Part shown: positions 17,019 through 39,817 of the stretch, in pieces | Layout: every line of letters begins with the position of its first letter | Numbering within the stretch: the stretch's first letter is position 1 | NCBI GenBank assembly: GCA_007122455.1 | Contig: SKTU01000113.1 | Span: forward strand, 1 to 45,148 | DNA: 45,148 nt | Direction of reading: 5' to 3' | Source: Haloarculaceae archaeon | GTDB taxonomy: Archaea; Halobacteriota; Halobacteria; Halobacteriales; Haloarculaceae | Made by a program: the position numbers and the translations under genes | Notes under the pieces: model-generated | Seen by the model: the letters and a program-made list of their open reading frames with translations, nothing else | The model's database searches: none | Told to the model about the DNA's origin: nothing

Positions 17019-17030
17019 CGAACATCTTTC
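17019..17030 (-). promoter_or_regulatory. CGAACAT-type regulon site before the FeS/NrfD operon
   Basis: Plus-strand text CGAACATCTTTC, ten of twelve bases as in CGAACATNTTCG, ends 40 bp before the ATG at 16978 on the minus strand. The spacing equals that of other sites in the window. Confidence 0.6.
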
Positions 17031-17103
17031 AGAGCCTCGCCTCCGAGTTCTCGCCGGATCCACCTAGTAGGTCGTGCTGTGTCTCACTCTCTGAGATCGG
17101 TGA

Positions 17104-17115
17104 CGAACATGTTCG
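17104..17115. promoter_or_regulatory. Perfect palindromic copy of the regulon site, partner gene unclear
   Basis: CGAACATGTTCG, a perfect 12-bp palindrome, lies in the divergent region between the FeS/NrfD operon and the DUF2249 gene. It is 84 bp from the plus-strand start and 125 bp from the minus-strand start, too far for the usual 37-40 bp, and overlaps a second GTTCGAAC palindrome. It could be an auxiliary binding site. Confidence 0.6.
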
Positions 17116-17147
17116 AACGGCGAACCGTCTGGAGAGTTCGTCGGTGT

Positions 17148-17159
17148 CGAACATCATCG
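17148..17159 (+). promoter_or_regulatory. CGAACAT-type regulon site before the first DUF2249 gene
   Basis: CGAACATCATCG followed by GGGAAA; it ends 40 bp before the ATG at 17200. The trailing GGGAAA is shared with the sites at 17723, 36958 and 39806 and may be the BRE/TATA-side part of the promoter. Confidence 0.7.
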
Positions 17160-17199
17160 GGGAAACGCCGAACCCGGTACCACCCGACCGTTCAACCGT

Positions 17200-17466
17200 A
17201 TGGCTACTGATTCAGACGCCCGTCGCGTGCTGGACGTCCGAACGCTCGAGGAGCCACCGTTCGGACCGATCATGGAAGAGCTCGACGCGCTGTCGGAGGA
17301 CGAATCGCTCGTCGTCGTCAACAGCTTCGAACCGGAACCGCTCTACGGCGTGCTCGAAGCGCGTGGGTTCAGCTACGAGACGCTCCGGGTCGACGACGAC
17401 GAGTGGCGGATTCACGTCGTTCACGCGGAAGCCGATCGTGCTCCGCGTTCGGGGGGTCCCGCGTGA
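17200..17466 (+). CDS. DUF2249 protein (TusA-like fold)
   Basis: 88 residues: RRVLDVRTLEEPPFGPIMEELDALSEDESLVVVNSFEPEPLYGVLEARGFSYETLRVDDDEWRIHV in outline, which carries the DUF2249 signatures (LDVR.L.PP..., the E.L..L...E.L.V.N..EP.PL......G). The family has a TusA-like two-layer fold; it lacks a catalytic Cys here. DUF2249 genes are frequently found beside nitric-oxide reductase, hemerythrin or denitrification genes, but the reaction is unknown. Preceded by a regulon site at 17148; the stop overlaps the next DUF2249 gene (GTGA), so they form a pair. Confidence 0.88.
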   Translation: MATDSDARRVLDVRTLEEPPFGPIMEELDALSEDESLVVVNSFEPEPLYGVLEARGFSYETLRVDDDEWRIHVVHAEADRAPRSGGPA

Positions 17467-17702
17467 CGGACGATGCCGTGACCCTCGACGTGCGGGACGT
17501 TCCGCCGCCACAACGGCATCCGAAGATCCACGACGCCTTTGCCGGCCTGGAGTCGGGAGGGACGCTCCTCGTCGTCAACGACCACGAGCCGAAGCCGCTC
17601 TACTACGAGTTCGTAGCGGAGATCGACGCGTTCGACGCGGAAGGGTACACGGTCGAACGAACTGGTCCCGAGGAGTTCGTCGCCGCGTTCCCGAAGCGGT
17701 AG
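17463..17702 (+). CDS. Second DUF2249 protein
   Basis: 79 residues from a GTG at 17463 that overlaps the TGA of the preceding DUF2249 gene; upstream in-frame codons give a Ser/Arg-rich shadow. It reads TLDVRDVPPPQRHPKIHDAFAGLESGGTLLVVNDHEPKPLYYEF, the DUF2249 core with the LDVR-PPP-RH signature and NDHEPKPL motif; the conserved HEPKPL His is kept here but replaced by Phe in the upstream copy. The two proteins may form a heterodimer. The ~70-bp gap to the Htur_1727-like gene contains its own regulon site. Confidence 0.88.
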   Translation: MTDDAVTLDVRDVPPPQRHPKIHDAFAGLESGGTLLVVNDHEPKPLYYEFVAEIDAFDAEGYTVERTGPEEFVAAFPKR

Positions 17703-17722
17703 CGATACTGCCGGGCGAGTGA

Positions 17723-17734
17723 CGAACATCTTCG
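17723..17734 (+). promoter_or_regulatory. CGAACAT-type regulon site before the Htur_1727-like gene
   Basis: CGAACATCTTCG followed directly by GGAAAAA; it ends 37 bp before the ATG at 17772. Confidence 0.7.
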
Positions 17735-17771: not shown

Positions 17772-18068
17772 ATGGTCGAGCGACCGCAGCGACGACGAAC
17801 CGGTGACCACGAGCGCGCACCGAACGGCATCGAGTGGGAGCTGTTCGTCAGGGAGTCCGCGTCGGATCCGCTCCGACACGTCGGGAGCGTTCGCGCCCAC
17901 GACGTCGAGGAGGCGTACGAACTGGGGACGAGACTCTTCGCGTGGTATGCGGACGATCTGTGGATCTGTCCCGCCGATTCGGTCACACGGTATTCGACGC
18001 ACGACCTCGACGCGAGCGCTACGGCTGCAGACATCGCGGTGGAGGGGGAGCCGCGCGCTCACGAATGA
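17772..18068 (+). CDS. Htur_1727-like, radical-SAM-partnered candidate protein (PaaB-like)
   Basis: 98 residues: EWELFVRESASDPLRHVGSVRAHDVEEAYELGTRLFAWYADDLWICPADSVTRYSTHDL in outline. This agrees with the haloarchaeal family I know as Htur_1727, described as a radical-SAM-partnered candidate RiPP, and is also reminiscent of PaaB of phenylacetyl-CoA oxygenase (E-V-F-x-x-.. HVGS...A). It has a single Cys, in WICPAD. The presence of a TIGR04053-type radical SAM/SPASM enzyme under the same promoter signature at 39425 fits a functional link though 21 kb away. Whether it is modified or acts as a scaffold is not known. A regulon site lies 37 bp before its ATG. Confidence 0.7.
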   Translation: MVERPQRRRTGDHERAPNGIEWELFVRESASDPLRHVGSVRAHDVEEAYELGTRLFAWYADDLWICPADSVTRYSTHDLDASATAADIAVEGEPRAHE

Positions 18069-18080: not shown

Positions 18081-18749
18081 TCAGGCGGGATCCATCGGGG
18101 GAGGCGACGCCGATTCGAGACCGCTCTCGTGCTCGTAGAACTGCTCGATGATCGCGCTCTCGATGCGGTGGAGCATCTCGCTGCAGGTCGATTTCGCGAT
18201 CCCGAACTCCTCCGCGAGTTCGGTCAGCGAACAGTTCCGCGGGACGTCGTAGTAGCCGTGCTCGATCGCTGCCGCGAGCAGCTCGCGTTGTCTATCCGAG
18301 AGGAGCCGGTCGCGGTCGGCGCCGTCCCGAACGGATTCGAGCGTGTAGGCGAGGCCGAACCGATCGAGCTGCTCGCCGAGCTCGGAGAGCTTCTCGTGGG
18401 GCAGGAGGAGCTCGACGGTCGCGACGCTGTCCTCGATGACGACCGGCGGTTCGATCGGCACGCCGGAGGCACGTGCCGAAAACAGCAGCAGCGGTGCCGT
18501 CGTCTCGATCTGCGTGACGACTCGAGAGGACTCGTGGTGGAGCGGCTCCACCGAACTGAGTGCTTCGTGATCGACCATCGACTCGAGGACCGGAACGAGA
18601 TCCGGAGCGGTCAGTTCGACGAGTGCGAATCCGACGTCTTCCCCGGGGATTGCCGCGAGAACGCGGAACGTCGCCTCGGGGAACTCGCTCGATACGTCAC
18701 CGATCCACGTTCTGTCGGGTAACGTGATTTTGAGGCGTGCGTGTGGCAT
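18081..18749 (-). CDS. HTH-10 (bacterio-opsin-activator-like) regulator, DmsR/NarO type
   Basis: 222 residues from the ATG at 18749. The first ~150 residues are a sensor/dimerisation region typical of the DmsR/NarO branch (MPHARLKITLPDRTWIGDVS..., FPEATFRVLAAIPGEDVGFALVEL). The C-terminal HTH-10 domain is clear: LSDRQRELLAAAIEHGYYDVPRNCSLTELAEEFGIAKSTCSEMLHRIE. Its only two cysteines are in the HTH, so it has no N-terminal Cys cluster of the kind described for NarO and probably does not bind an Fe-S cluster itself. It is divergent from a copper ATPase that carries a regulon site. It is the best candidate in the window for the protein that reads CGAACATNNTCG; this is inference. Confidence 0.88.
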   Translation of the reverse strand: MPHARLKITLPDRTWIGDVSSEFPEATFRVLAAIPGEDVGFALVELTAPDLVPVLESMVDHEALSSVEPLHHESSRVVTQIETTAPLLLFSARASGVPIEPPVVIEDSVATVELLLPHEKLSELGEQLDRFGLAYTLESVRDGADRDRLLSDRQRELLAAAIEHGYYDVPRNCSLTELAEEFGIAKSTCSEMLHRIESAIIEQFYEHESGLESASPPPMDPA

Positions 18750-18861: not shown

Positions 18862-18873
18862 TGAACATGTTCG
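18862..18873 (+). promoter_or_regulatory. CGAACAT-type regulon site before the first copper ATPase
   Basis: TGAACATGTTCG ends 38 bp before the ATG at 18912. An in-frame ATG at 18867 lies inside the site, which argues that 18912 is the real start. Confidence 0.7.
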
Positions 18874-18911: not shown

Positions 18912-21344
18912 ATGAGCATCTGTCGTCTCTGCGATCTTCCGACCCCGGAGCCGCCGGTGACCGCTCACGGTGTCGAGGGAACGTTCTGCTGCCGCGGCTG
19001 TCTGAACGTCGCCGACGCGCTCGACGGCGTCGAGGCGGTCGAGGTGGACGCCGAGGCGTCGACACCGATCCCGCGGGAGATCCCTGACGACGCCGCGGAA
19101 ACCTTCCTGGCCGTCGATGGGATGCACTGCACGACGTGCGAGCTGTTCCTCGGTCTCCGCGCCGACGGGATCGACGGCGTCCTCGCAGTCGATGCGAACT
19201 ACGCGACCGAAACGGCGCGGGTCGTCTACGAACCGGATTCGATCGAGGAGAGCCAGCTCCCGGAACTGCTCTCGGGCCACGGCTATACGGTACGAAAGCG
19301 GACTGCCGACTCGAACGGTGACGACCCGGCGGCGATCCGACAGCGCGATACCGCCCAGCGGCTCGTCGCCGGCGGGTTCTTCGCCATGCTCGTCATGCCG
19401 TGGTATCTGTTCTACCTCTACCCGAGCTACGTCGGTATCGAGACGGGGATCCTCGACGTCGACGCGACGACCGCGGTCGGTGTCTATCTGCCGCTCGTGA
19501 TGCTCGGTCTGTTGACGTCCGTCGTCCTCTTTTATACCGGTTATCCGGTTCTGCGGGGTGCGTGGGTCAGCGTCCGAACGCGACAGCCGAACATGGATCT
19601 GCTCGTCTCGATCGCCGCAGTATCCGCGTACGGCTACAGCACGGTGGCGCTGGCGACCGGCAGCACGCACCTGTATTACGACGTCAGCGTCGCGGTGATC
19701 ATGGTCGTCACGCTCGGTCGATACTACGAGGGGAAGATCCGGTCGGAGGCGACCGGCTTGCTCTCGTCGCTGACGACCGCGCGCGTTCGAAGCGCGACGA
19801 GACGAACCGACGACGGCAGGGAGACCGTTCCGGTCGAGGAGCTCGAAGCCGGGGACCGAGTCGTGGTGACGCCGGGCGAGCGGATCCCCGTCGACGGGAT
19901 TGTCGTGGAGGGTGTCGCCGACGTCGACGAGTCGATTCTCACCGGTGAGTCGGTTCCAGTGACCAAACGTCCCGGAGAGACGGTGATCGGCGGTGCAGTC
20001 ACCACCGACGCGGCGCTGATCGTCGAGGTCGGGCCGAACGCCGAGAGCACGGTCGATCGAATCGCCACGATGCTGTGGGGAATCCAGAGCGACTCGCCGA
20101 GCGTCCAGCGGTTCGTCGACGCGCTCGCGACGGTCTTCGTTCCAGTCGTGTTGACGCTCGGCGTCGTCGTCACCGCGTGGCAGTTCGCCACGGGTGGGAC
20201 GGTCGCCGCCGCGCTACTCGCCGGGCTGACGGTGTTGGTCGTCTCCTGTCCGTGTGCGATGGGGCTCGCGACGCCGCTCGCGATCTCGGGGGGACTTCGC
20301 GACGCGCTCCGCCGCGGAATCGTCGTCGCGAACGACTCCGTCTTCGAGATCGCGCCCGACGCGGAGACGATCGTCTTCGACAAGACCGGGACGATCACCA
20401 CCGGTGATATGCGTGTCACTGAAACGTTCGGTGACGAGCGGGCGCTCCGGTTGGCGGCGGCGGTCGAGCGGCGCTCGGATCACCCCGTCGCCGATGCGAT
20501 CCTCGACGCTGTCGGGTCGGCCGTCGATTCCGACGCCGTCGCCGACGGCGGTGCCGTGGTCCCCTACGGGACCGACGGGATCGATTCCTCGGAGCCGCTA
20601 CCCGAGATGACCGATTTCTCTCGACATCCAGGAGAGGGTGTCTCCGGAAGCGTCGACGGAAGAGTGATCGTCGTCGGGACTCCCGACCTCGTTCGGCGTC
20701 AGGTCGGGGCGATCCCCGATCGGCTCGTGGCGGCGATACGTCGAATCGAACGGGATGGCGGCCTTCCGGTCGTCGTCGGGTGGGGCGATCGAGGGCGGGG
20801 CGTGATCGCCGTGGCCGATCGGGAGCGCGAGGAGTGGGAGACGGCCGTCGAGGCGTTCGCCGATCGAGACGTCGTCGTGTTGACCGGCGATTCGGGGCCG
20901 CGCGTCGATCGATATCGGAACCATCCCTCGATCGACGAGCTGTTCGCCGGCGTCCCGCCGGAGGGGAAGGCCGAAACCGTGCGCCGGTTGGCCGCGACGT
21001 CGACGACGGTAATGGTCGGTGACGGGACGAACGACGCGCCGGCGCTGGCCGCGGCCGATCTCGGTATCGCGATGGGTGACGGCACGGCCCGGGCCGCCGA
21101 CGCGGCCGACGTCGTCGTTCTCGAGAGCGATCTCACGGCACTCGAGGACGTCTTCGATCTCGCCAGCGGGACGCGTCGACGGATTCGAGAGAACGTCGGA
21201 TGGGCCCTCCTCTACAACGCCGTCGCGATCCCGCTCGCCGTCGTTGGCCTCATCAACCCGCTGTTCGCCGCCGTCGCGATGGCCGCCAGCAGCCTCATCG
21301 TCGTCTCGAACTCGAGACGGCCGGTCGTTCGCGTCTCGGAGTAG
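18912..21344 (+). CDS. Copper-type P1B ATPase (FixI/CtpA-like)
   Basis: 810 residues from the ATG at 18912, placed by the promoter site at 18862. N-terminus: a five-Cys metal-binding module (C4, C7, C26, C27, C30), then an HMA domain with GMHCTTC (Cys73, Cys76), eight membrane helices, TGES, the membrane metal site SCPCAMGLATP, the phosphorylated Asp in DKTGTITTG, and GDGTNDAPALAAADLGIAMGDGT. CPC and the extra N-terminal Cys module are typical of FixI/CcoI-type pumps that export Cu(I) for oxidase assembly rather than for detoxification. It lies divergent from the HTH-10 regulator and has a paralogue at 26691. With the oxidase and NO-reductase-like genes, it probably feeds copper to CuA/CuB sites. 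Confidence 0.92.
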   Translation: MSICRLCDLPTPEPPVTAHGVEGTFCCRGCLNVADALDGVEAVEVDAEASTPIPREIPDDAAETFLAVDGMHCTTCELFLGLRADGIDGVLAVDANYATETARVVYEPDSIEESQLPELLSGHGYTVRKRTADSNGDDPAAIRQRDTAQRLVAGGFFAMLVMPWYLFYLYPSYVGIETGILDVDATTAVGVYLPLVMLGLLTSVVLFYTGYPVLRGAWVSVRTRQPNMDLLVSIAAVSAYGYSTVALATGSTHLYYDVSVAVIMVVTLGRYYEGKIRSEATGLLSSLTTARVRSATRRTDDGRETVPVEELEAGDRVVVTPGERIPVDGIVVEGVADVDESILTGESVPVTKRPGETVIGGAVTTDAALIVEVGPNAESTVDRIATMLWGIQSDSPSVQRFVDALATVFVPVVLTLGVVVTAWQFATGGTVAAALLAGLTVLVVSCPCAMGLATPLAISGGLRDALRRGIVVANDSVFEIAPDAETIVFDKTGTITTGDMRVTETFGDERALRLAAAVERRSDHPVADAILDAVGSAVDSDAVADGGAVVPYGTDGIDSSEPLPEMTDFSRHPGEGVSGSVDGRVIVVGTPDLVRRQVGAIPDRLVAAIRRIERDGGLPVVVGWGDRGRGVIAVADREREEWETAVEAFADRDVVVLTGDSGPRVDRYRNHPSIDELFAGVPPEGKAETVRRLAATSTTVMVGDGTNDAPALAAADLGIAMGDGTARAADAADVVVLESDLTALEDVFDLASGTRRRIRENVGWALLYNAVAIPLAVVGLINPLFAAVAMAASSLIVVSNSRRPVVRVSE

Positions 21345-22138: not shown

Positions 22139-23869
22139 TCAGGCGCCGATCGACCACAGTTGCGTGAGCAGGAACCAGTTCAGGACGTAGAGCAGGACGA
22201 ACGTCGCCATGAACACGAGACAGAGGGTGAACGTCCCCCGCATGTCGGCGGCGTGAACCGAGTCGCCGCCGTCCGAGAGTACGCCGCCGTCGGGAACCAT
22301 TCCGCCGTCGTCGCCGCTCTCCAGGCGCCGCCCGAACAGCAGCGATCCCGCCGCCACCGCCAGAAACAACACGCCCGCCAGAATCGCCAGCACCGCAAAG
22401 ATACCGAACAGCGTCATCAGCGGCGCCGCCGCAGACAGACTGAACTCCGTCCCCGGAATGTTCCGAACTACGCTCGAAGTCCGACGCGGCACCCCGTAGA
22501 GGATTCCCACGTACATCATCATCAGCGTCGCGATCCCCATCGCTCCCGCGTAGAAATACGGCACCAGCGACGCCGCCCGTTCCGAGATGAATGCCCGACG
22601 AAACATCGTCTTGATCACGAAAAACAACAAGCCCATGAAGGCGAGCGTCGTCCCCAGCGCGACCGTTCCGTGGAAATGTCCGACCGTCGCGAACGTGTTG
22701 TGCCAGGTCATGTTGAGCTGGAGTTGACCCATCAGGACGCCGGTGATGCCGCCGACGAAGCCGAAGAGGATGATGCTGAAGATCGTCGCCGAAAACACCG
22801 GATTCCGCCACGGCGCCGACGTCAACCAGCCGAACAGCCCGCCGCCGAACCCCCGCTGGCGACGTCCCGCCTCCAATCCAGCTGGGATCGCGAAGGCGTG
22901 GATCATACTCGCAAACGCCGCCCCGTAAAAGGCATACGAGGTGTTGAAGATCCGCCAGCCGACCGACACGCCCGGATCGACCATCAGGTGGTGAGCCGCC
23001 CCGAGGTTGATGAAGAACAGATAGAGGATAAATGCCGATCGCGATACCTTCTCGGAGACCAAGACGGCGCCACCGACGACGTGGGTGAGGAAATACCACA
23101 CCGTGATCATCGCCAACAGGTTGATCTGCTGGGTCCCGTGACCGACGATCCAGTAGAGCTGCCGATAGATCCCGGTATTTATTGTCTCGATAAGTCCGAG
23201 TTGCCAGATCAGCGCGTATCCGAACGCGGCGATCCCACCGAGGATCGCCTCGACGGCGATGATGCTCGTGATGAACGCGCCGAAGACCACCAGCGGAAGC
23301 GTCTTGTCGGGCGCCCCGCGCTTTTCGAACCAGATCGTCGCCAAAAACGGCAGCGCGGCGATCGTCGCTCCGATCAGGAAGACGATCGCGCTCGCGTAGA
23401 ACTCCATCGGCACGTTGAGGGGAACGTACGCCGTCAAAAGCGGTGCCTCCTGGGATCCGGAGACCGTCCAGATGGAGTAGTTGACGCCGAGTGCGCCGGC
23501 GACCATGGTGATCCAGCCGGCTTTCGCGAGTTTCGTCAGCGGAAGCTTCCGACCGAGCACCATCGGGCCGCCGACGTAGAGGATCGCGATCTCCATGAAC
23601 ACCATCCAGAAGATGAGGATGTTCCAGGCGTGCATGCTGAGATGTCTGTAGTAGCCGTCCTCGGGGAGGAGGCCGATCAGTTCCCAGCGGGTCGTCGCGA
23701 CGGTGAACGCGAAAATTCCGCCGACGATCAGCGCGACGACGGCGGTGAGCCCGAACAGTTTGACGTGGGTTTCGACGGATCGGTGGACGTCGAGACCGGT
23801 GACCGAACAGCGACGAAACCCCTCCTCGTCGTAGTCGTTCTCGAAGAGCTGTCGGATCGTCGACACCAT
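22139..23869 (-). CDS. Heme-copper superfamily subunit I, probable eNOR-type NO reductase
   Basis: 576 residues, at least 12 membrane helices. The six conserved histidines are present: H80 (low-spin heme), H244 (helix VI), H293-H294 and H398/H400 (HFH). In oxygen reductases of the A and B types the residue four after the helix-VI His is the cross-linked Tyr (HPEVY, HAVVY; the ba3 gene of this window has H228/Y232). Here that position is Gln248 (GHGTQQ), so the Tyr is missing. NO reductases lack this Tyr, and a Gln-containing, CuA-linked family called eNOR has been described in archaea. The gene is in operon with a CuA subunit II and a small membrane peptide. NO reduction is inferred; oxygen reduction with another radical donor is not excluded. 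Confidence 0.85.
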   Translation of the reverse strand: MVSTIRQLFENDYDEEGFRRCSVTGLDVHRSVETHVKLFGLTAVVALIVGGIFAFTVATTRWELIGLLPEDGYYRHLSMHAWNILIFWMVFMEIAILYVGGPMVLGRKLPLTKLAKAGWITMVAGALGVNYSIWTVSGSQEAPLLTAYVPLNVPMEFYASAIVFLIGATIAALPFLATIWFEKRGAPDKTLPLVVFGAFITSIIAVEAILGGIAAFGYALIWQLGLIETINTGIYRQLYWIVGHGTQQINLLAMITVWYFLTHVVGGAVLVSEKVSRSAFILYLFFINLGAAHHLMVDPGVSVGWRIFNTSYAFYGAAFASMIHAFAIPAGLEAGRRQRGFGGGLFGWLTSAPWRNPVFSATIFSIILFGFVGGITGVLMGQLQLNMTWHNTFATVGHFHGTVALGTTLAFMGLLFFVIKTMFRRAFISERAASLVPYFYAGAMGIATLMMMYVGILYGVPRRTSSVVRNIPGTEFSLSAAAPLMTLFGIFAVLAILAGVLFLAVAAGSLLFGRRLESGDDGGMVPDGGVLSDGGDSVHAADMRGTFTLCLVFMATFVLLYVLNWFLLTQLWSIGA

Positions 23870-23870
23870 G

Positions 23871-24416
23871 TCAGTTCTCCTCCACGATGAGCGTCCCGTG
23901 CATGCCGTTGTGGCCTCGACCACAGAACTCGTTGCAGATGACGTGGTACGTTCCGGGTTCTTCGAAGGTCATCGGAACGATCCACTCGGTGTCGGGGAAG
24001 ATTTGGAGGTTGATCTGTTTGCTGAGCGTCTCTTCGGGCCGGATCGAGAAGCCGTGCTGGACGTCGTAGGCACCGAGATGAATGTCGTACTCGCGGTTGG
24101 CCTCCAGAACGACGGGGAGGCCGTCCCAGTGGAATCGCAGCCCTGCGATGTAGACCGAATCGCCGGGTGGGACGAGATACCCTTCGTCGGTCTCGCCGGC
24201 GGCGTCCTTGTATTCGGCGACGGCGGCCTGGAACTCCTGTGGGTCGACGGCGTACGTTTCGCCGATGGGGTTCTGCTCGCCGAAGCGGGTGAAGCCGCTC
24301 ATCCAGCCGAAGATGGCGAGCGACCAGAGACCGGCGATGCCGAGCCAGATCGACTCCCGTCGGTTGACCGGTTCGTCCCACCAGTTACCCTCCGGCGGAT
24401 CGAGTGGATTTGGCAC
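23871..24416 (-). CDS. CuA-containing subunit II of the heme-copper enzyme
   Basis: 181 residues. One N-terminal membrane anchor (IWLGIAGLWSLAIFGWMSGF) is followed by a cupredoxin domain with the CuA set intact: His121 in DVQHGFSI, Cys161-x3-Cys165-x3-His169-x2-Met172 in CNEFCGRGHNGM. The domain faces outside and accepts electrons from a halocyanin or cytochrome. It has an unusual ~35-residue insertion after the anchor with EYKDAAGETDEGYLVP. The stop lies 1 bp before the ATG of subunit I at 23869; the small TM peptide precedes it by 6 bp, giving a tight operon. Confidence 0.92.
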   Translation of the reverse strand: MPNPLDPPEGNWWDEPVNRRESIWLGIAGLWSLAIFGWMSGFTRFGEQNPIGETYAVDPQEFQAAVAEYKDAAGETDEGYLVPPGDSVYIAGLRFHWDGLPVVLEANREYDIHLGAYDVQHGFSIRPEETLSKQINLQIFPDTEWIVPMTFEEPGTYHVICNEFCGRGHNGMHGTLIVEEN

Positions 24417-24422: not shown

Positions 24423-24569
24423 TCACCTCGGTGGAACTGAGAGGACGTCGATCAATCCCCAGCCGACGTAGACGACGAGGAAGAACGCCAGTGCGGCCGC
24501 TGCTAGTAGCCAGATCCGATTGTACAGCCGTTGCATCGTCGGGATCTGTTCGGTCGATGAACTGCTCAT
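24423..24569 (-). CDS. Small single-helix subunit of the CuA heme-copper enzyme
   Basis: 48 residues from the ATG at 24569, with one transmembrane helix (IWLLAAAALAFFLVVYVGWGLIDVL) after a polar N-terminus. It lies 6 bp upstream of subunit II, which supports it as a real small subunit comparable to those of ba3-type oxidases. The upstream in-frame extension to 24671 has shadow composition and is rejected. A CGTACATGTTCG site at 24619 lies 49 bp before the start. Confidence 0.7.
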   Translation of the reverse strand: MSSSSTEQIPTMQRLYNRIWLLAAAALAFFLVVYVGWGLIDVLSVPPR

Positions 24570-24618: not shown

Positions 24619-24630
24619 CGTACATGTTCG
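24619..24630 (-). promoter_or_regulatory. CGAACAT-type regulon site before the CuA/subunit I operon
   Basis: CGTACATGTTCG ends 49 bp before the ATG at 24569; one base differs from the palindrome CGAACATGTTCG, and the spacing is 11 bp (one helical turn) longer than at most other sites. Confidence 0.55.
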
Positions 24631-24692: not shown

Positions 24693-26021
24693 TCAGGCGC
24701 TTCGAGCGACGCGGTCGAAGAGGATTCCGACGATCGTCTGGGGACTGTGCCGAACGAGCACGAGCAGCATGTTCGCGACGAACAGCGACACGCCGATCGC
24801 GAAGGCGATCCGACCGCCCGTCGCGACTACCGTGGACGTACCGAGGAGATCACCCGCGACGATCGTGGCCGTTCCAGCGACGAGCAAGCCGAACTCTACG
24901 GCGGCAACGCGGCCATCGTAGAGCTCGTCGATCATCGGAACGTCGCGTAGACCGAGGTGGTCGCTGTAGCGGTGAATCCAGACGATGAACGGAACGACGT
25001 GGTAGAGCGTCCCGAAGACGACGAAGCCGATGACACCGATTGCGAGCAGGTGGACGGTCCCCGGAGCACCGTACAGCGTGGTCGGATCGAGCGGCGCGCG
25101 GATCCACGCCGGTGCGGTCAGAAGCGCCCACGCGATCATCGCGAGGGAGACGACGACGTACCGGCGAAGCATCGGCGTCCACTCGACCCGCGTCTCGTAC
25201 AGTCGGCGTGCGAGCAGTACGCCGATGCCGAGGACGCTGACGACGATCAGCGCGCCGCCGATGCGACCCGCCGTGGGAACGCCGAACAGTCGCCCACCGG
25301 CCAGCGAGACGACGCCGACCGGATATCCGATTTCCTCGAAGCGACGGATGTGGACGTCGATTCCGCGTAACTCCGACTGGGTGAACATCGTCGCGAGCTG
25401 GTAGAGCGCACCGATCACCGTCGTGAGCACCGCGCCGAACACCGCGACGGTCACGTGAGCCATCCGTGCCGACTCGTGGGTGACCGGTACGTTCGCGAGC
25501 GTGAACACCGGCCGCGAGAAACCGACGGCGAGCGAGAGCCCGAGCACCGAGAGGAGCAGAAAGAATCCCAACGCGACTGCGAAATGCCGCTCCGTCACGT
25601 CCCACGGACGGACGCCGAGTAGCGTCCGGGCGACGTTGTAGACGAACAGCCAGAAGCCGCACAGAACCACTGCGCCACCGAGCCACGGGGCGGCGCCGAG
25701 GACGAGCGCCCCGACGAATCCGACTAACCCTCCGGCGACGAGCCACAGCTGTACCGTCGCGATCCGCCTCGAGTGTAGCTCAGTCCCGGACCACACCGGA
25801 ACGAACTGCGTCATTGCCCCCATGATCGTGACGCAGACCCATCCCGCGAGTAGCAGGTGGACGTGGACGAGCGGGAGCGACCCTCCGGTAGTTGCGAATC
25901 CGTTGGTCGCTCCGGAGAGCACGCCAGCGAGGAGAAATCCGAGCCCGACGACGAAATGCCGTAGTGGAACCGTCATCGGCGGGCCGCGGTCCGTGTCGAT
26001 ACCAGCCGGAATTGCAGCCAT
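24693..26021 (-). CDS. 12-TM heme-copper-oxidase-like / NnrS-like membrane protein
   Basis: 442 residues from the ATG at 26021, fixed by the site at 26060; later in-frame ATG codons (25976) are possible. About twelve hydrophobic helices. His pairs sit where heme ligands would be (PLVHVHLLLAGWVCVTIMGAMTQFVPVW, ARMAHVTVAVFGAVLTTVIGALYQL, GTVHLLAIGVIGFVVFGTLYHVVPFIVWIHRY). It resembles the single-subunit, cbb3-subunit-I-like proteins annotated near NnrS/NO genes in haloarchaea, but the binuclear-centre motif is not complete. It is likely a heme and/or copper membrane protein of NO metabolism. It lies upstream of the eNOR-like operon with 123 bp between. Confidence 0.75.
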   Translation of the reverse strand: MAAIPAGIDTDRGPPMTVPLRHFVVGLGFLLAGVLSGATNGFATTGGSLPLVHVHLLLAGWVCVTIMGAMTQFVPVWSGTELHSRRIATVQLWLVAGGLVGFVGALVLGAAPWLGGAVVLCGFWLFVYNVARTLLGVRPWDVTERHFAVALGFFLLLSVLGLSLAVGFSRPVFTLANVPVTHESARMAHVTVAVFGAVLTTVIGALYQLATMFTQSELRGIDVHIRRFEEIGYPVGVVSLAGGRLFGVPTAGRIGGALIVVSVLGIGVLLARRLYETRVEWTPMLRRYVVVSLAMIAWALLTAPAWIRAPLDPTTLYGAPGTVHLLAIGVIGFVVFGTLYHVVPFIVWIHRYSDHLGLRDVPMIDELYDGRVAAVEFGLLVAGTATIVAGDLLGTSTVVATGGRIAFAIGVSLFVANMLLVLVRHSPQTIVGILFDRVARSA

Positions 26022-26059: not shown

Positions 26060-26071
26060 CGAACATCTTCG
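26060..26071 (-). promoter_or_regulatory. CGAACAT-type regulon site before the 12-TM protein gene
   Basis: CGAACATCTTCG on the plus strand ends 38 bp before the ATG at 26021 on the minus strand. Confidence 0.7.
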
Positions 26072-26669: not shown

Positions 26670-26681
26670 CGGACATGTTCG
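26670..26681 (-). promoter_or_regulatory. CGAACAT-type regulon site before the 26631 gene
   Basis: CGGACATGTTCG, one base off the palindrome, ends 38 bp before the ATG at 26631; it lies just 3' of the copper ATPase stop. Confidence 0.7.
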
Positions 26682-31853: not shown

Positions 31854-32053
31854 TGCGCATCTCCCGCGCCGGACTGCTCGTCGTCATCGCGATCATGATT
31901 CCGATACTCGTCGAGCTCCGGACCGTACTGGCGTATTTCAGTGTCAGTATCTCCGTCATGGAGACCGTCCTCATCGGAGCACTCGCCGTCGGTGCACTCG
32001 TCCTCTGGGCCGTCTTCCCGTCGACCGATACCAACAGACCGAACGGGGAGTGA
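31853..32053 (+). CDS. Small membrane subunit after cbaA
   Basis: 66 residues with two helices (AGLLVVIAIMIPILVELRTVL and METVLIGALAVGALVLWAVFP), ending in a polar tail. The ATG overlaps the TGA of cbaA (TGATG), which indicates coupled translation and membership of the ba3 complex. Seven bases separate it from the SCO1 gene. I do not assign one of the historical cba letters. Confidence 0.75.
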   Translation: MRISRAGLLVVIAIMIPILVELRTVLAYFSVSISVMETVLIGALAVGALVLWAVFPSTDTNRPNGE

Positions 32054-33988: not shown

Positions 33989-34000
33989 CGGAGATATTCG
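33989..34000 (+). promoter_or_regulatory. Weak CGAACAT-type site before the sulfite-oxidase-fold gene
   Basis: CGGAGATATTCG shares nine of twelve bases with the relevant consensus variants and ends exactly 38 bp before the ATG at 34039. The spacing is what makes it credible. Confidence 0.4.
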
Positions 34001-34038: not shown

Positions 34039-34545
34039 ATGAGTGGGCTCGAACGCCACGAGGTTCCGGACGACGTCGACGGTGACGAGTGGCGGCTCCG
34101 GATAACGGGCGCGGTCGAACGTTCCGTGGAGCTGTCCGAACGCGATCTCGAAGCGTACGCGATGGAGACGTTTACGTCCGATTTCGACTGTATCGCGGGA
34201 TGGACGGCGGCGGGGCTCTCGTGGAGGGGAGTTCGCGTCGGGACGCTTCTCGATCGCGCGACGCCGACGGCCGACTGCCGATACGCGCTCGTTCGTGCAG
34301 CGGACGGGGAGTACGCCTGTTCGTTCCCGCTGGATCGTCTCCGGAGCGCAGTTCTCGCCGTCGAACTGGACGGCGAGCGGTTGCCACTCGAACACGGCGG
34401 CCCGGCCCGGTTAGTTCCGACGGCGACCGACGCCGATTGCTGGGAGTCGATCAAGTGGGTCGAGGGTATCGAACTCCACCGTTCCGAGCCGGCGGCGTCC
34501 GACACCGCGAAAGCGACTGCGCTCTCCCGGATCGATGCGCAGTAA
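34039..34545 (+). CDS. Small sulfite-oxidase-fold (molybdopterin-binding) protein
   Basis: 168 residues forming only the oxidoreductase molybdopterin-binding domain: WRLRITGAVERSVELSERDLEAY, then FDCIAGWTAAGLSWRGVRVGTLL with the Mo-ligand Cys (FDC), and a SVPLDRL-type SFPLDRLRSAVLAVELDGERLPLEHGGPARLVPT block. There is no Tat signal and no dimerisation domain. Small cytoplasmic members like this are common in haloarchaea; substrate unknown. It overlaps the methyltransferase gene by 11 bp, so they are co-translated. Confidence 0.85.
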   Translation: MSGLERHEVPDDVDGDEWRLRITGAVERSVELSERDLEAYAMETFTSDFDCIAGWTAAGLSWRGVRVGTLLDRATPTADCRYALVRAADGEYACSFPLDRLRSAVLAVELDGERLPLEHGGPARLVPTATDADCWESIKWVEGIELHRSEPAASDTAKATALSRIDAQ

Positions 34546-35154: not shown

Positions 35155-35457
35155 TCAGTCGATGCGTCGGGCGAGCACCAACAGCGCGTCGCTCGTCTCG
35201 ATCGCCTTCGGCGACAGTTCGTGTCGGCCGTCGACCCGGACGACGTCCCCGGTTTCGATCGTCTGCGTCTCGTCGTCGACATCCAGTTCCAACCGCCCCG
35301 AACGGAGATAGAGGACGACTCGGCGCTCCGGATGGGTGTGCGGCTCGACGCGCTCGCCGGCGTCGAGCTGTAGCCGGATTACGACCGGTTCGCCGCCGTC
35401 GAACGGTCGGGCGTGCGGTGCTGCAGTCAGTTCGTCGAGGGATCTGCGCTCGATCAT
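35155..35457 (-). CDS. Cupin-fold protein
   Basis: 100 residues, a small double-stranded beta helix. Motif one reads GERVEPHTHPERRVVLYLRSGRLELDVDD (H-T-H with a later E/R replaced by R) and motif two ETGDVVRVDGRHELSPKA with a His; a metal site with three His is likely. The ATG at 35457 overlaps the stop of a 14-codon leader ORF (ATGA). The regulon site at 35539 belongs to this transcript. Possible roles are a metal-bound sensor or dioxygenase-like protein; not specified. Confidence 0.85.
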   Translation of the reverse strand: MIERRSLDELTAAPHARPFDGGEPVVIRLQLDAGERVEPHTHPERRVVLYLRSGRLELDVDDETQTIETGDVVRVDGRHELSPKAIETSDALLVLARRID

Positions 35458-35538: not shown

Positions 35539-35550
35539 CGAACATCTTCG
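35539..35550 (-). promoter_or_regulatory. CGAACAT-type regulon site before the leader/cupin genes
   Basis: CGAACATCTTCG, 40 bp before the leader ATG at 35498 and 81 bp before the cupin ATG at 35457. Confidence 0.65.
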
Positions 35551-35556
35551 GGAGCG

Positions 35557-36882
35557 TCACACCAGTACGGCCTCGACGAGGATCCCAACGAGGACGCCGC
35601 CCAGATAGACGTTCGAGGCGACGAAGCTGCGGTAGGTCGCCGCTGGCGTGTCGAGACGGTACTGCTGGACGATACTGAGGAGGAAGATGGCACCGGCGAG
35701 AACTGCGATAGCCGCGTAGATCGTGCCGAACTCGACGGTAACTCCGAGATAGACGGCGACCGCGAGGGTGGAACCGAACCAGAAGACGATCCGGCGACGT
35801 GTGGCCGCGATCCCTCTCTCGACCGGGACCATCGGGTAGGACGCGCGGGCGTAATCGTCGCGATAGACGATCGCCAGGTTGTAGAAGTGAGCCGGTGTCC
35901 AGCAGACGACGAGTGCAGCCAGAAGCAACGCCGGGAGACCGACGCCGTTCGTCACCGCGGCCCAGCCGATCACTGCCGGTAGGGCACCGGAACCGCCACC
36001 GATTACGGTGTTCCACGCCGTCGTCGGCTTCAGGACGACCGTGTAGACGACACTGTAATAAACGATAGCTGCGAGCGTGAGGACCGCGGCGACCACGTTG
36101 ACGAGCGCGACGAGAATCACCATCGAGGCGACGCCGAGCGAGAGCCCGAACGCCGTCGCTCGACGCGGACTGACTTGGTGCGTCGCGACCGGGCGTTCGG
36201 TGGTCCGCTCCATCCGTCGGTCCCTGTCGCGCTCGTAGACGTGATTGAACGTTCCCGACGCCCCGACAGCGAGCACGCCGCCGGCGAGCGTCGCCACGAC
36301 GGTTACGCCGTCGATCGACGCGCCGGTCGCGACAGCCAGCGCCATCCCGGCGAGTGCGAGCAGACAGAGGAGCCACATCAATCGCGGTTTCGTGAGCGCG
36401 ACGTAGGCCCGGACGCGATCGCGGAGCGTTGGGTGGCGGTCCAGAATCGGCGAGGTCGTCACCGCGTCGTCGGTCGGTGCAGATTCGGTGGGGACTCCGC
36501 TCTCGTGTTCGAGTTGCCAGACGAGCGTCAACAGGAGGAGACCGAACACGGCGACGCCGCCGAGCAGGTGTAGCTGGTCGACGGGCGCTCCGACGTTGAG
36601 GGGGATCGTCCCGACGGCGTGTGCCATCCCGAGGAGTCCCTGTATCGGGACGATGGCGACCGCTACGGCGGTTCCGAGCCGGACTCTACTCGGCGCGTCA
36701 CCGAGAAAGACGCCGACGGCGGCGACGACGAGCAATCCCCAGACTGTCGCGGCCGCGACGTAGTGTGCCCCCGCAACGACCGGCGTGCCGCCGGTGGCCG
36801 CGGTCGTCGCACCGAAGGCCACCGCGACGTACGTACCGAGAACTGCAGCGGTCAGTAGTCCCGAAGGACGAACCCCTCTCAT
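35557..36882 (-). CDS. ctaB: Heme O synthase (protoheme farnesyltransferase) with CtaA-like N-terminal domain
   Basis: 441 residues. The C-terminal ~280 residues are a UbiA-superfamily prenyltransferase: NHVYERDRDRRMERTTERP (N-x3-D-x3-D, residues ~214-232) and YRDDYARASYPMVP (second Asp-rich motif), with about nine helices. The N-terminal ~150 residues add four helices resembling the CtaA/COX15 half (GAHYVAAATVWGLLVV, MAHAVGTIPLNVG, VDQLHLLGGVAVFGLLLLTL), an arrangement usual in haloarchaea. It makes heme O from heme B for the terminal oxidase. A CGAATATGTTCG site at 36921 ends 38 bp before its ATG. It is divergent from ahbC, so heme production and modification share one control region. Confidence 0.9.
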   Translation of the reverse strand: MRGVRPSGLLTAAVLGTYVAVAFGATTAATGGTPVVAGAHYVAAATVWGLLVVAAVGVFLGDAPSRVRLGTAVAVAIVPIQGLLGMAHAVGTIPLNVGAPVDQLHLLGGVAVFGLLLLTLVWQLEHESGVPTESAPTDDAVTTSPILDRHPTLRDRVRAYVALTKPRLMWLLCLLALAGMALAVATGASIDGVTVVATLAGGVLAVGASGTFNHVYERDRDRRMERTTERPVATHQVSPRRATAFGLSLGVASMVILVALVNVVAAVLTLAAIVYYSVVYTVVLKPTTAWNTVIGGGSGALPAVIGWAAVTNGVGLPALLLAALVVCWTPAHFYNLAIVYRDDYARASYPMVPVERGIAATRRRIVFWFGSTLAVAVYLGVTVEFGTIYAAIAVLAGAIFLLSIVQQYRLDTPAATYRSFVASNVYLGGVLVGILVEAVLV

Positions 36883-36920: not shown

Positions 36921-36932
36921 CGAATATGTTCG
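36921..36932 (-). promoter_or_regulatory. CGAACAT-type regulon site before ctaB
   Basis: CGAATATGTTCG ends 38 bp before the ATG at 36882. Confidence 0.7.
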
Positions 36933-36957: not shown

Positions 36958-36969
36958 CGAACATCATCG
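36958..36969 (+). promoter_or_regulatory. CGAACAT-type regulon site before the leader ORF/ahbC
   Basis: CGAACATCATCG followed by GGAAAA ends 38 bp before an ATG at 37008 and 126 bp before ahbC at 37096. Confidence 0.7.
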
Positions 36970-37007: not shown

Positions 37008-37088
37008 ATGTCGGAGCACAGTCGCGGTCGGACGGCCGAGCCTCGTTCGGAGAGCAGACGACCACAGATCGGTGTTGTAGGGGCGTAG
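37008..37088 (+). CDS. Possible 26-residue leader peptide before ahbC
   Basis: The ATG at 37008, 38 bp after the site at 36958, opens 26 codons (start MSEHSRGRTAEPRSESRRP, end IGVVGA) and stops at 37088, 7 bp before the ATG of ahbC at 37096. The frame differs from ahbC. The canonical spacing argues that the message starts here, and that ahbC is translated after this short ORF. Arg-rich; no homologue known. Confidence 0.4.
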   Translation: MSEHSRGRTAEPRSESRRPQIGVVGA

Positions 37089-37095: not shown

Positions 37096-38310
37096 ATGAT
37101 CTCCATCAGTAAACTGCTCTGTGGACTGGACGCCGAGAGCGACGGTCTTCGGTACGACGCCGCTACGGAGTCCACAGAGCCGCAGATCGCCGACCGGTAT
37201 CAGCGTCGACCGGTCGTCGTCTGGAACGTCACGAAGCAGTGTAACCTCTACTGTCAGCACTGTTACGCCAGCGCCGATCGGGAAGTCGCCCCCGGAGAGC
37301 TGAGGACGGCCGAGGGAAAGCGGTTGCTCGACGAGCTCGCGGGCTACGGCGTCCCGGTCGTCCTCTTTTCGGGCGGCGAACCGCTCGTTCGGGAGGATCT
37401 GGTCGAACTCGTCGACTACGCCGACGATCGAGGCATTCGACCGGTGCTCTCGACCAATGGGACGCTCATCACGCCGGAGACGGCGACCGAACTCCGAGAG
37501 GCCGGCCTGAAATACGCGGGTATCTCCGTCGACGGTATGCCCGAGCGGAACGACCGATTCCGTGGTCGCGAAGGCGCGTTCGACGCGGCCGTTCGCGGGA
37601 TCGAGGCCACCCTCGAAGCGGGAATAAAAACCGGACTCCGATACACGATCACCGAGCGGAACGTCGCGGATCTCGAGGCTGTCGTCGAGCTGTTACACGA
37701 GATCGGCGTCGATCGGTTCTGCTTTTACCACCTCGATTACGGTGGTCGTGGCGCCGACATCTCCGACGTGGACCTCGATCCGCTCGAAAAGCGAACGGCG
37801 GTCGAGACGCTCTGTGAGTTGACGCGCGCCTACTACGATCGGGGGGAGGCGATCGAGACGCTGCTGGTCGGCAACTACGCCGACGCCGCGTTCCTCGTCG
37901 AGTACGTGGCCGCGGAGCTCGGTCGAGAGGCCGCGACGGCAGTGTACCGGAAGCTCCAGCGCAACGGCGGCGACCCGGCGGGCGAACGCGTCGCCGACGT
38001 CGACTACCAGGGGAACGTCCATCTCACTCAGTTCTGGCAGGGGTATTCGCTCGGCAACGTCCGCGACCGACCCTTTAGTGCGATCTGGGACGACGAGGCG
38101 AATCCGTTGCTGACTCGGCTCCGAGAGCGGGAGAGCCACCTTTCCGGACGGTGTGTCGACTGCAGTTATAAGGGAATCTGCCGCGGCGGCTCGCGACTCC
38201 GCGCGCTCGCGGTCCATGGCGACATCGACGCCCCGGATCCGCAGTGTTATCTCACCGACGAGGAGATCGAATCGCCGCCACCGATCGAGCCAGCCTCGCC
38301 GGCCGGCTGA
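37096..38310 (+). CDS. ahbC: AhbC-like radical SAM/SPASM enzyme (Fe-coproporphyrin synthase, siroheme route)
   Basis: 404 residues. The start MISISKLLC is that of AhbC/NirJ-type enzymes; the radical SAM cluster is Cys49-x3-Cys53-x2-Cys56 in TKQCNLYCQHCYASA, followed by FSGGEPL and STNGT. The SPASM half has GNVHLTQFWQGYSLGNVRDRPFSAIW and a final CVDCSYKGICRGGSRLRALAVHGDIDAPDPQC. AhbC removes two acetate side chains from 12,18-didecarboxysiroheme to give Fe-coproporphyrin III in archaeal heme synthesis. The radical SAM enzyme beside it (stop 14 bp away, convergent) is a different family. NirJ (heme d1) is the alternative assignment. Confidence 0.85.
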   Translation: MISISKLLCGLDAESDGLRYDAATESTEPQIADRYQRRPVVVWNVTKQCNLYCQHCYASADREVAPGELRTAEGKRLLDELAGYGVPVVLFSGGEPLVREDLVELVDYADDRGIRPVLSTNGTLITPETATELREAGLKYAGISVDGMPERNDRFRGREGAFDAAVRGIEATLEAGIKTGLRYTITERNVADLEAVVELLHEIGVDRFCFYHLDYGGRGADISDVDLDPLEKRTAVETLCELTRAYYDRGEAIETLLVGNYADAAFLVEYVAAELGREAATAVYRKLQRNGGDPAGERVADVDYQGNVHLTQFWQGYSLGNVRDRPFSAIWDDEANPLLTRLRERESHLSGRCVDCSYKGICRGGSRLRALAVHGDIDAPDPQCYLTDEEIESPPPIEPASPAG

Positions 38311-38324
38311 TCGGAGGAGTGAAT

Positions 38325-39425
38325 CTACGTGCTCGTGAGAGATCGATTCGGAAGTGGCCCGTCGTAGGCCTCCGGAACGTAGCTGCAGAGCGGATCGCTC
38401 TCGAGCGGATCGCCGGTGTAGGCGTACGCTCTCGACCGACTCCCACCGCAGACGTGCCGGAACTCGCAGGCTCCGCACTTCCCTTCGAGGGCGTCGCAGT
38501 CCCGCAACGTCTCGAACAGCGTCGACTCGCGGTAAATGTCGACGACACCCCGGTCCCGGACGTTCCCGGCCGATTCCGGGAGGAATCCCGAGGGGTAGAC
38601 CTCGCCCGTGTGACTCACGAACGCGAACCCGTTTCCGGCCGTGATTCCGGTGCGGCGGCCGATCCCGTCCGGCGGCGTGGCGTCGGCGCCGGCGTCGCTG
38701 CGACGTCGCTGGAGTGCGACGCGTCGGTAGTGCGGCGCCTCGGTCGTCTTGACGCCGAACGATGAGGCCTCGTTTACTTCGGCGAGCCACTCCATGACGC
38801 GCTCGGCCCGCTCGGGAGCGATCGGTTCGAGCAGCCGACCGCGACCGACCGGAACCAGGAAAAACACCGACCACAGCACCGCCTCGAGCTCCGAGACGAG
38901 TTCGCGGATCCGGGGGAGTTCCGAGACGGTTTCCGCACAGACGGTCGTGTTTATCTGTAAGGGTAGCCCGGCGGCGTTCGCGGCGCGAGCGGCGCCGATC
39001 GTCTGCTCGAAACTCCCCCGTTCCCCCCGGAACGCGTCGTGGCGTTCGGCCGACGCGCCGTCGAGGCTCAGTGCCATGCGGCGGACCCCGGCCTCTTGGA
39101 GCGATCGGATCGACTCGGAGGTGAGCGAAGCGGTCCCACTCGGCGTCAGCGTCATGAGCAGTCCCCGGTCGACGCCGTACTCGATCAGCTCGTGGACGTC
39201 GTCGCGGTAGAGTGGGTCGCCGCCGGAGAGGACCACGAGCTGGTTTTCGCCGAACTCCCGCGCGGCGTCGAGTAACCGCTTCCCCTCGGCGGTCGACAAC
39301 TCCTCCGGATGCCTGTTCGGCCTGGCCTCCGCACGGCAGTGCTTGCAGGCCAGATCGCACGCCTGCGTCAGTTCCCAGATGAGGACGAACGGCCGCTCGC
39401 TCGTGTCGACGGCGCCCGGCCTCAT
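38325..39425 (-). CDS. TIGR04053-type radical SAM/SPASM enzyme
   Basis: 366 residues from the ATG at 39425, which overlaps the stop of the CGCGG gene (ATGA). The SAM cluster is Cys23-x3-Cys27-x2-Cys30 in QACDLACKHCRAEA; LSGGDPLYRDDV, SPSGT-like TPSGTASLTSE, and LSLDGASAERHDAFRGERGSFEQT follow. The SPASM part has SGFLPESAGNVRDRGV and CGACEFRHVCGGSRSRAYAY. This pattern belongs to the TIGR04053 group, whose haloarchaeal members occur beside CGCGG and Htur_1727-like proteins. It is likely to modify a peptide; heme chemistry as in AhbD is the alternative. Translational coupling to a candidate precursor is the best evidence for RiPP maturation. Confidence 0.88.
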   Translation of the reverse strand: MRPGAVDTSERPFVLIWELTQACDLACKHCRAEARPNRHPEELSTAEGKRLLDAAREFGENQLVVLSGGDPLYRDDVHELIEYGVDRGLLMTLTPSGTASLTSESIRSLQEAGVRRMALSLDGASAERHDAFRGERGSFEQTIGAARAANAAGLPLQINTTVCAETVSELPRIRELVSELEAVLWSVFFLVPVGRGRLLEPIAPERAERVMEWLAEVNEASSFGVKTTEAPHYRRVALQRRRSDAGADATPPDGIGRRTGITAGNGFAFVSHTGEVYPSGFLPESAGNVRDRGVVDIYRESTLFETLRDCDALEGKCGACEFRHVCGGSRSRAYAYTGDPLESDPLCSYVPEAYDGPLPNRSLTST

Positions 39426-39739
39426 CGTGATTCGACGTGAACGCGCGTCACGTGGCCGCCGCACCCACACCGTTCGACGTATTCGACGTCGGCCCGGTTC
39501 TCGAACGCCGCCTCGAGCGGGCCGTACAGATACTGTTCTGGATGGCCGTGGTCGCCGTGGGTGACGAGGTTGACGTGGTTCCCCGGCGTCGTCCGTTCGA
39601 TCGCCTCGATCGCGTGCTCGACGAGTAATCCAGGGTCGACCGCGTACTGTGGCGTTTCGAGGTTGGCCGACCACGAGTTGTCGTGTACTCGATCGGTGAC
39701 CGGTTCGACGCCCTCGACGTCGCGAGTACTGTTCGACAT
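39422..39739 (-). CDS. CGCGG-family candidate radical-SAM-modified RiPP precursor
   Basis: 105 residues from the ATG at 39739. The ending VEYVERCGCGGHVTRVHVESR carries the CGCGG motif (Cys91, Cys93), the only cysteines, in a conserved GNHVNLVTHGDHGHPEQYLYGPLEAAF context. I know this family as CGCGG, a putative radical-SAM-modified RiPP. The stop overlaps the start of the TIGR04053-type radical SAM gene. The N-terminal ~90 residues are long for a leader and may form a stable His-rich (HGDHGH) domain that binds metal. A regulon site (39780) lies 40 bp before the ATG, shared with a divergent DUF2249 gene. The product structure is unknown. Confidence 0.8.
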   Translation of the reverse strand: MSNSTRDVEGVEPVTDRVHDNSWSANLETPQYAVDPGLLVEHAIEAIERTTPGNHVNLVTHGDHGHPEQYLYGPLEAAFENRADVEYVERCGCGGHVTRVHVESR

Positions 39740-39779
39740 ACGGCTCGAACTCCGACGCCCATCCCGGAAAGCGACCCGC

Positions 39780-39791
39780 CGAACATCTTCG
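39780..39791 (-). promoter_or_regulatory. CGAACAT-type regulon site before the CGCGG gene
   Basis: CGAACATCTTCG on the plus strand ends 40 bp before the ATG at 39739 on the minus strand. Confidence 0.7.
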
Positions 39792-39805
39792 GAGTTCGGA
39801 CGAAC

Positions 39806-39817
39806 CGAACATTATCG
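39806..39817 (+). promoter_or_regulatory. CGAACAT-type regulon site before the third DUF2249 gene
   Basis: CGAACATTATCG followed by GGGAAA ends 38 bp before the ATG at 39856; together with the site at 39780 it makes a back-to-back divergent control region. Confidence 0.7.

Follow-up and report, generated by a model that had tools for sequence, protein, structure and literature searches.

We examined a 45,148-nt stretch of DNA from a Haloarculaceae archaeon (contig SKTU01000113.1 of assembly GCA_007122455.1; hereafter the window) for a 12-bp site that recurs between its genes, and for the protein that may read this site, a regulator of the HTH_10 family that we call P0003. The window is an entire contig (C131) of a 2.93 Mb assembly in 149 contigs that is 87% complete, and its genes were called with a simple codon model trained on the window itself. 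An earlier note on this DNA had placed the site at 14 positions, ten of them ending 37-40 bp before a start codon; all 14 were found again, and the ten gaps, re-measured to the ATG, fall in the same range.

A 12-bp site recurs across the locus

The sites and the genes behind them are as follows (ORF, open reading frame; aa, amino acids; TM, transmembrane):

17019 to 17030, minus strand: site 40 bp before an FeS/NrfD operon (15737-16978 and 14421-15740, minus strand)
17104 to 17115, no strand assigned: perfect palindrome with no start at about 38 bp; 84 bp before 17200 and 125 bp before 16978
17148 to 17159, plus strand: site 40 bp before two DUF2249 genes (17200-17466 and 17463-17702)
17723 to 17734, plus strand: site 37 bp before an Htur_1727-family gene (17772-18068)
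18862 to 18873, no strand assigned: divergent site 38 bp before a copper ATPase gene (18912-21344, plus strand)
24619 to 24630, minus strand: site with a 49 bp gap to the ORF of a 48-aa membrane peptide (24423-24569), which heads an operon predicted to be of eNOR type
26060 to 26071, minus strand: site 38 bp before the gene of a 12-TM protein (24693-26021)
26670 to 26681, minus strand: site 38 bp before the gene of an uncharacterised 182-aa protein (26083-26631)
33989 to 34000, plus strand: weak site 38 bp before a molybdopterin-domain protein gene (34039-34545)
35539 to 35550, minus strand: site 40 bp before a 14-codon ORF and 81 bp before a cupin gene (35155-35457)
36921 to 36932, minus strand: exact palindrome 38 bp before ctaB (35557-36882)
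36958 to 36969, plus strand: site 38 bp before a 26-codon ORF (37008) and 126 bp before a TIGR04347 AhbC/NirJ-like gene (37096-38310)
39780 to 39791, minus strand: site 40 bp before a CGCGG-family gene (39422-39739) and a TIGR04053 radical SAM gene (38325-39425)
39806 to 39817, plus strand: site 38 bp before a DUF2249 gene (39856-40119)

The four copies that the note had set apart also behave as it described. The 35539 copy stands before what it called a leader ORF, the ATG there opening the 14-codon frame; the start that it had put 49 bp from 24619 is that of the membrane-peptide ORF; 17104 has no clear partner, its closest start codons lying at 78-125 bp; and 33989 is indeed weaker, while keeping its 38 bp gap. 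The very short ORFs at 37008-37088 and 35498 (minus strand) begin 38-40 bp behind sites 36958 and 35539 and lie upstream of annotated genes; they may be leader ORFs or mere markers of where transcription starts.

Distribution of the palindrome in this genome

Going by the letters of its copies, the site is best written as the palindrome CGAAYATRTTCG, with one half degenerate at many window sites. Exact copies of CGAAYATRTTCG occur at five places in the assembly, namely upstream of a narG-like gene, nirK and nosZ, at the ctaB site (36921) and at the unpartnered 17104. The same five match the published consensus CGAAYATDKTYG exactly, and the other 12 window sites depart from it by one mismatch (eight sites) or two (17019, 17148, 33989 and 36958).

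The raw 12-mer CGAACATNNTCG has nine exact copies in the 45 kb window and 26 in the remaining 2.89 Mb, against 0.41 expected in the window from the rest of the genome (Poisson, 6e-10). All nine window copies lie between genes; outside the window 21 of the 26 fall in called coding regions, two (L014, L023) being in short low-scoring ORFs. Three of the five outside intergenic copies lie 182 bp ahead of a narG-like gene (itself followed by a narH-like one), 277 bp ahead of the called start of nirK and 93 bp ahead of nosZ; the other two (L013, L020), which adjoin no recognisable denitrification gene, may be chance occurrences. By itself the raw 12-mer is unspecific: none of the 292 haloarchaeal genomes examined is without it, and strand hits range from 9 to 59 per genome. 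Since coding sequence is a source of such matches, counts of the 12-mer across genomes are uninformative as a measure of the regulon, and the palindrome was used in its place.

Allowing up to one mismatch, CGAAYATRTTCG occurs at 40 places genome-wide, of which nine are in the window (all intergenic, six with a gap of 36-41 bp to a start) and 31 outside it. Shuffled half-site controls (192 distinct) gave a mean of 0.2 window hits at this stringency and none with such a gap; with up to two mismatches the palindrome has 22 window hits, 16 of them intergenic and nine with the gap, compared with 3.1, 0.8 and 0.05 for the controls. Sixteen of the 31 outside places are intergenic, and three of these have a start at 36-41 bp, belonging to a MoaD-like gene (38 bp), a NifU-like gene (39 bp) and the gene of an 87-aa protein (39 bp), where the names MoaD-like and NifU-like are profile matches below model cut-offs. 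The note had drawn the regulon over 23 kb. The regulon stands, but its confinement does not, because sites also precede the narG-like, nirK, nosZ, MoaD-like and NifU-like genes elsewhere in the genome.

Spacing and promoter architecture

We compared 130 distinct exact palindromes from 35 other haloarchaeal genomes in 19 genera, 120 of them intergenic, after dropping palindromes with duplicate or too short context. These genomes are a non-random set, in which 12 were hand-picked, several for their high counts, and some are close relatives. Gaps of 35-44 bp make up 56 of the 147 palindrome-to-start gaps below 150 bp. A gap of exactly 38 bp accounts for 28 (27 palindromes in 11 genera), and the other 5-bp bins hold zero to eight gaps. 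A called start at 35-46 bp follows 52 of the 120 intergenic palindromes, in 14 of 17 genera.

Leaderless promoters of haloarchaea are built from a transcription factor B recognition element (BRE), a TATA element and a -10 element. In the 26 of 28 gap-38 cases used for promoter composition, A+T content reaches 85% at -27 and 88% and 85% at -11 and -10, with a weaker rise at -35, -33 and -29. The window's own seven gap-38 promoters have A or T in all seven at -34, -33 and -10, in six at -27 and in five at -11. Because A+T rises at -27 and -11/-10, the gap-38 layout reads as that of a leaderless haloarchaeal promoter, with the palindrome apparently abutting BRE/TATA on the upstream side, which is the position of an activator. 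What the earlier note had proposed, a site of activator type directly ahead of the core promoter, is supported by the gap peak at 38 bp and by the A+T pattern. Spacing, composition and shuffled controls likewise speak against a random placement of hits relative to start codons, the outcome that the note had named as telling against a regulon.

The candidate regulator P0003

One gene of the window encodes a candidate for the protein that reads the palindrome:

18081 to 18749, minus strand: HTH_10 regulator P0003, the proposed activator; 222 aa, PF04967 at 69 bits (cut-off 23.1)

P0003 is the only protein with a DNA-binding domain among the scanned proteins of the 17-40 kb region, the Pfam scan having passed over three short membrane-protein ORFs (29160-29360, 29462-29623 and 31853-32053). 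With translation from an in-frame upstream ATG at 18821 the protein would be 24 aa longer. The divergent site 18862, which the note had paired with the copper ATPase, also faces P0003 on the other strand, at 40 bp from the ATG at 18821 and 112 bp from that at 18749.

The Pfam scan found no PAS or GAF domain in P0003. Its cysteines lie only at the helix-turn-helix (HTH), with none in the N-terminal part, and an alignment of 30 P0003-family proteins contains no invariant Cys or His. A structural model (predicted local distance difference test score, pLDDT, 87; predicted template modelling score, pTM, 0.63) has two beta-alpha-beta-beta-alpha-beta units and a C-terminal HTH, and on the secondary structure of this model the N-terminal part would be read as two ferredoxin-like units. 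A fold search with the model returned three matches at E <=0.001, none of them convincing (best TM-score to the query 0.45, for 5m86), and identified no ligand. The family is discrete, since in the set examined 51 distinct orthologues at E <=2e-49 are followed by a jump to 2e-13.

Orthologues of P0003 tend to have the site in their own promoters. It lies within 200 bp of the start in 24 of 29 orthologue promoters (a set that excludes the window's own gene and includes some loci from close relatives), with a gap of 34-46 bp in 12 and of 0-10 bp in 10, and column-permuted matrices place a mean of 0.35 orthologue promoters in the 34-46 bp range. Of 13 other HTH_10 genes of this genome, three started outside their locus and one had little upstream sequence; one of the ten examined has a site, a weak one, within 200 bp. 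Paired own-promoter sites, with gaps of about 39-44 bp and about 1-9 bp to the start, are found for the orthologues at loci L130, L135 and L140, and with a variant half at L054, L056 and L059. Such pairing suggests activation plus self-repression.

Co-occurrence with the palindrome and with nirK

We then used the number of exact palindromes per genome to ask how the motif follows the gene. Genomes with a P0003 orthologue (252) have a mean of 3.19 palindromes, compared with 0.59 in those without (27; p 3e-11), and the mean is 1.46 in 13 genomes whose match is intermediate (E 3e-25 to 2e-36) and which stand outside these main contrasts. The contrast holds among genomes without nirK (1.99 in 93 genomes with the orthologue and 0.64 in 25 without; p 6e-6), and the two nirK-positive genomes that lack the orthologue both have zero palindromes. 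A within-genus test over 14 strata gave a mean difference of 2.5 palindromes (permutation p 5e-5). Finally, across the 78 of 292 genomes with coordinates, an orthologue lies within 20 kb of a strong nirK match in 46, where about 1.1 would be expected.

Target genes and the nor step

Several of the window's targets are found again in other genera at the same gap. Grouped by target, the 124 palindrome-gene pairs with a gap of 30-130 bp are led by the P0003 orthologue (26), DUF2249 (16), MoaD-like proteins (10), halocyanin-like proteins (10) and the group containing the 12-TM protein (8). Then come a small HTH protein (5), TIGR04053-type radical SAM (5), NOR (4) and a short helical protein (4), followed by CGCGG (3), nirK (3), the 182-aa protein (2), nosZ (2) and an acyl-CoA-dehydrogenase-like protein (2); the remaining targets are singletons, including one hybrid-cluster-like protein. 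Many of these target names are our own, assigned on inspection of N-termini or taken over from neighbouring annotated genes in Halorussus halophilus and Haloferax larsenii. A related-locus search with one sequence yielded six loci, and the examples with names are drawn from plasmid records. Most of the listed genes almost certainly belong to one regulon.

Individual targets recur as follows. In G287 the sequence of the 17723 site is found with the same target (named by eye) at a gap of 38 bp; at locus L159 of that genome a gene similar to the window's molybdopterin-domain gene has an exact palindrome at 71 bp, and a similar cupin gene has a gap of 37 bp. Proteins like the 12-TM protein are also encoded behind palindromes in other genomes, and proteins resembling the 182-aa protein, by eye from their N-termini, stand at a gap of 38 bp; a PHROGs search with the latter gave a single match (E 0.18).

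As for the denitrification pathway itself, NirK of this genome scores above its cut-off and NosZ is matched by a partial protein, whereas NarG-like and NarH-like are assigned on similarity only, below cut-off. The nor step may be supplied by the window:

22139 to 24416, minus strand: eNOR-type operon, with a COX1-family subunit I (22139-23869) and a CuA-type subunit II (23871-24416)

Subunit I has a Gln where oxygen reductases have a Tyr (its HGTQQ aligns with HPIVY in the ba3 oxidase), which is the criterion for an eNOR (PMC8756737). Immediately upstream of it is the cupredoxin (CuA) subunit II, which resembles oxidase subunit II models below their cut-offs. On these residues the operon is of eNOR type and is predicted to provide the nor step here. 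The 48-aa peptide at its head (24423-24569, minus strand) has one membrane-helix-like stretch and may be an unannotated small subunit.

Other features of the window touch on the same genes. Two loci with regulon sites, the Htur_1727-family gene (17772-18068) and the CGCGG and radical SAM genes (38325-39739), are of the type associated with ribosomally synthesised and post-translationally modified peptides (RiPPs). Two copper P-type ATPases have Cys-rich N-termini (18912-21344 and 26691-29117), of which the first alone has a site; the second precedes site 26670 and adjoins a second COX1/COX2 operon (29620-31853), which has none of the reported sites. Outside this genome, in L157 (G001), which lacks a strong nirK match, palindromes at 1650 and 4148 stand before a hybrid-cluster-like gene (116 bp) and a P0003 orthologue (31 bp), hinting at a role in defence against nitric oxide (NO) apart from denitrification.

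Relation to known systems

The motif itself has been described before (PMC10062603 and PMC11218638). In Haloferax mediterranei CGAAYATDKTYG is found in the nar, nir, nor and nos promoters and in 83 promoter regions genome-wide, and point mutations in it significantly reduced nos and nor promoter activity, reduced nir activity non-significantly and did not lower that of nar (PMC10062603, which credits Hattori 2016 with a similar motif in other haloarchaea). RNA-seq links the motif to DUF2249 genes and to E6P09_00735, a bacterioopsin-activator-like gene within the nirK/nor cluster, and the authors call its regulator undisclosed (PMC11218638); control of nirK, norZ and nosZ is ascribed to unknown NO/nitrite sensors (PMC7188791). 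Our literature search, which could reach few of the subscription papers, found the regulator of this motif named nowhere. From its position in the nirK/nor cluster, and from a similar cluster in H. larsenii, whose P0003 orthologue is KU306_RS18205, E6P09_00735 is probably a P0003 orthologue.

The H. mediterranei system shares with ours the palindrome, the nar, nir, nor, nos and DUF2249 genes and a bacterioopsin-activator-like HTH gene in motif-rich clusters. It differs in that a gap of 66-79 bp separates its nir, nor and nos sites from the start codon, whereas the window's gaps are mostly 37-40 bp, and in that the window adds CGCGG/radical SAM, Htur_1727, ctaB, FeS/NrfD and eNOR-type genes to the set. 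The wider bacterioopsin-activator family (HTH_10, PF04967) consists of archaeal activators with the same C-terminal HTH_10, but P0003 shows no PAS or GAF domain in the Pfam scan, and the model gives it two ferredoxin-like units in its N-terminal part. Bacterial DNR/NNR, NsrR and NorR, which respond to NO, offer a functional analogy, with one regulator over nir, nor, nos and accessory genes, but belong to unrelated protein families and act at bacterial promoters. NarO of H. volcanii, the protein studied by Hattori in 2016, is reported to have an N-terminal CXnCXCX7C cysteine motif; P0003 has no N-terminal cysteine. NarO otherwise resembles P0003 in being of HTH_10 type without PAS or GAF and in controlling denitrification genes. 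The narO gene lies upstream of the nar operon (PMC10062603), unlike the P0003 gene, which is away from narG, on contig C131 with the narG-like gene on C4 of the 149.

Weighing the alternatives

Several observations count against P0003 as the direct activator. As to spacing, no start was called 35-46 bp from 68 of the 120 intergenic palindromes, and there is a broader cluster of gaps at 65-84 bp, a distance like that of the nir, nor and nos sites in the literature. Five of the 29 orthologue promoters have no site within 200 bp, and one column permutation also reached 12 promoters, presumably through a swap of near-identical columns. In the co-occurrence data the genomes are related, and kinship is allowed for only in the within-genus test; 18 of the 252 genomes with an orthologue have zero palindromes, while 11 of the 27 without have at least one (G036 has three). 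Own-promoter sites also feed the contrast: in 15 chosen genomes they make up about a third of the palindrome count, the mean falling from 3.07 to 2.07 without them. Lastly, among genomes with the orthologue, those that also carry a Cys-rich HTH_10 family have 3.44 palindromes and those without it 2.0.

Because of this last difference an added role for the Cys-rich family is possible, and one may ask whether another protein, for example a member of this family, which resembles NarO/DmsR, is the real reader of the palindrome, with P0003 as just one target. Cys-rich HTH_10 genes do stand 38-39 bp behind palindromes in L119, L125 and L128 (G258, G178 and G016), which suggests a regulatory cascade, and these proteins, like the member of this genome (L028), have a CXCX7C-type cysteine motif of the kind reported for NarO/DmsR. 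NarO is moreover the published denitrification regulator of H. volcanii, as cited in PMC10062603. However, 21 of the 27 genomes without P0003 carry the Cys-rich family and yet have a mean of 0.71 palindromes, compared with 2.0 in the 44 genomes with P0003 but not the Cys-rich family (p 6e-4); L028 has no site in its promoter; and H. mediterranei, where the motif works, is reported to be without NarO (PMC10062603). Judged on the Cys-rich family, the one rival family compared in this way, we consider this explanation unlikely. The earlier note had brought up a NarO-dependent inverted repeat: the palindrome is borne out, being that published for H. mediterranei, but NarO is not the best candidate for its owner, because of its reported absence there and because palindrome counts follow the P0003 family, and we ranked it below P0003.

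It is somewhat more improbable that P0003 binds the palindrome as a repressor released by NO or nitrite, in the manner of bacterial NsrR. The 10 orthologue promoters with a site 0-10 bp from the start have it in a repressor-type position, but the usual position is upstream of BRE/TATA, and in H. mediterranei the nos and nor promoters become less active, not more, when the site is mutated (PMC10062603). That the sites are chance or codon-usage matches near start codons might be argued from the presence of the raw 12-mer in every genome and its abundance in coding regions outside the window. This we find scarcely credible, given that the genome has only five exact palindromes, that three of the five precede narG-like, nirK and nosZ genes, that shuffled controls are near zero and that the spacing is common to other genera.

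Proposed mechanism and significance

The regulon is real and statistically strong; its motif was already known, and the genome is new to it. P0003 is in our view probably its direct activator, although we infer its binding, its dimeric state, activation and the NO/nitrite signal alike. The case draws here on site enrichment, preferred spacing, promoter-like composition, the identity of the targets, sites in orthologue promoters, linkage to nirK and the palindrome deficit in genomes without the gene, and from the literature on the site mutations that lower nos and nor promoter activity in H. mediterranei. Under low oxygen with NO or nitrite, P0003 would bind the palindrome as a dimer at about -50 to -39, counted from the 5' end of transcripts that appear to be leaderless, and, sitting directly upstream of weak BRE/TATA elements, would help the general factors to activate transcription. 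It would also act on its own promoter, where the second site at the start codon in several relatives could provide negative feedback that caps P0003.

More tentatively, P0003 may represent a class-wide archaeal activator family (252 of 292 haloarchaeal genomes) and the missing NO/nitrite-responsive regulator of denitrification, sensing through paired ferredoxin-like domains rather than conserved Cys/His ligands, with a preferred geometry of 38 bp and a smaller, perhaps older, NO-defence set in genomes without nirK. Identification of P0003 as the candidate regulator is a specific and testable prediction: the question of which sensor governs nirK, norZ and nosZ in H. mediterranei becomes directly testable, with a single-gene candidate, a defined operator, spacing and targets. 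It also marks the DUF2249, 12-TM, 182-aa and MoaD-like proteins, and the RiPP/radical SAM pairs, as likely partners of haloarchaeal denitrification.

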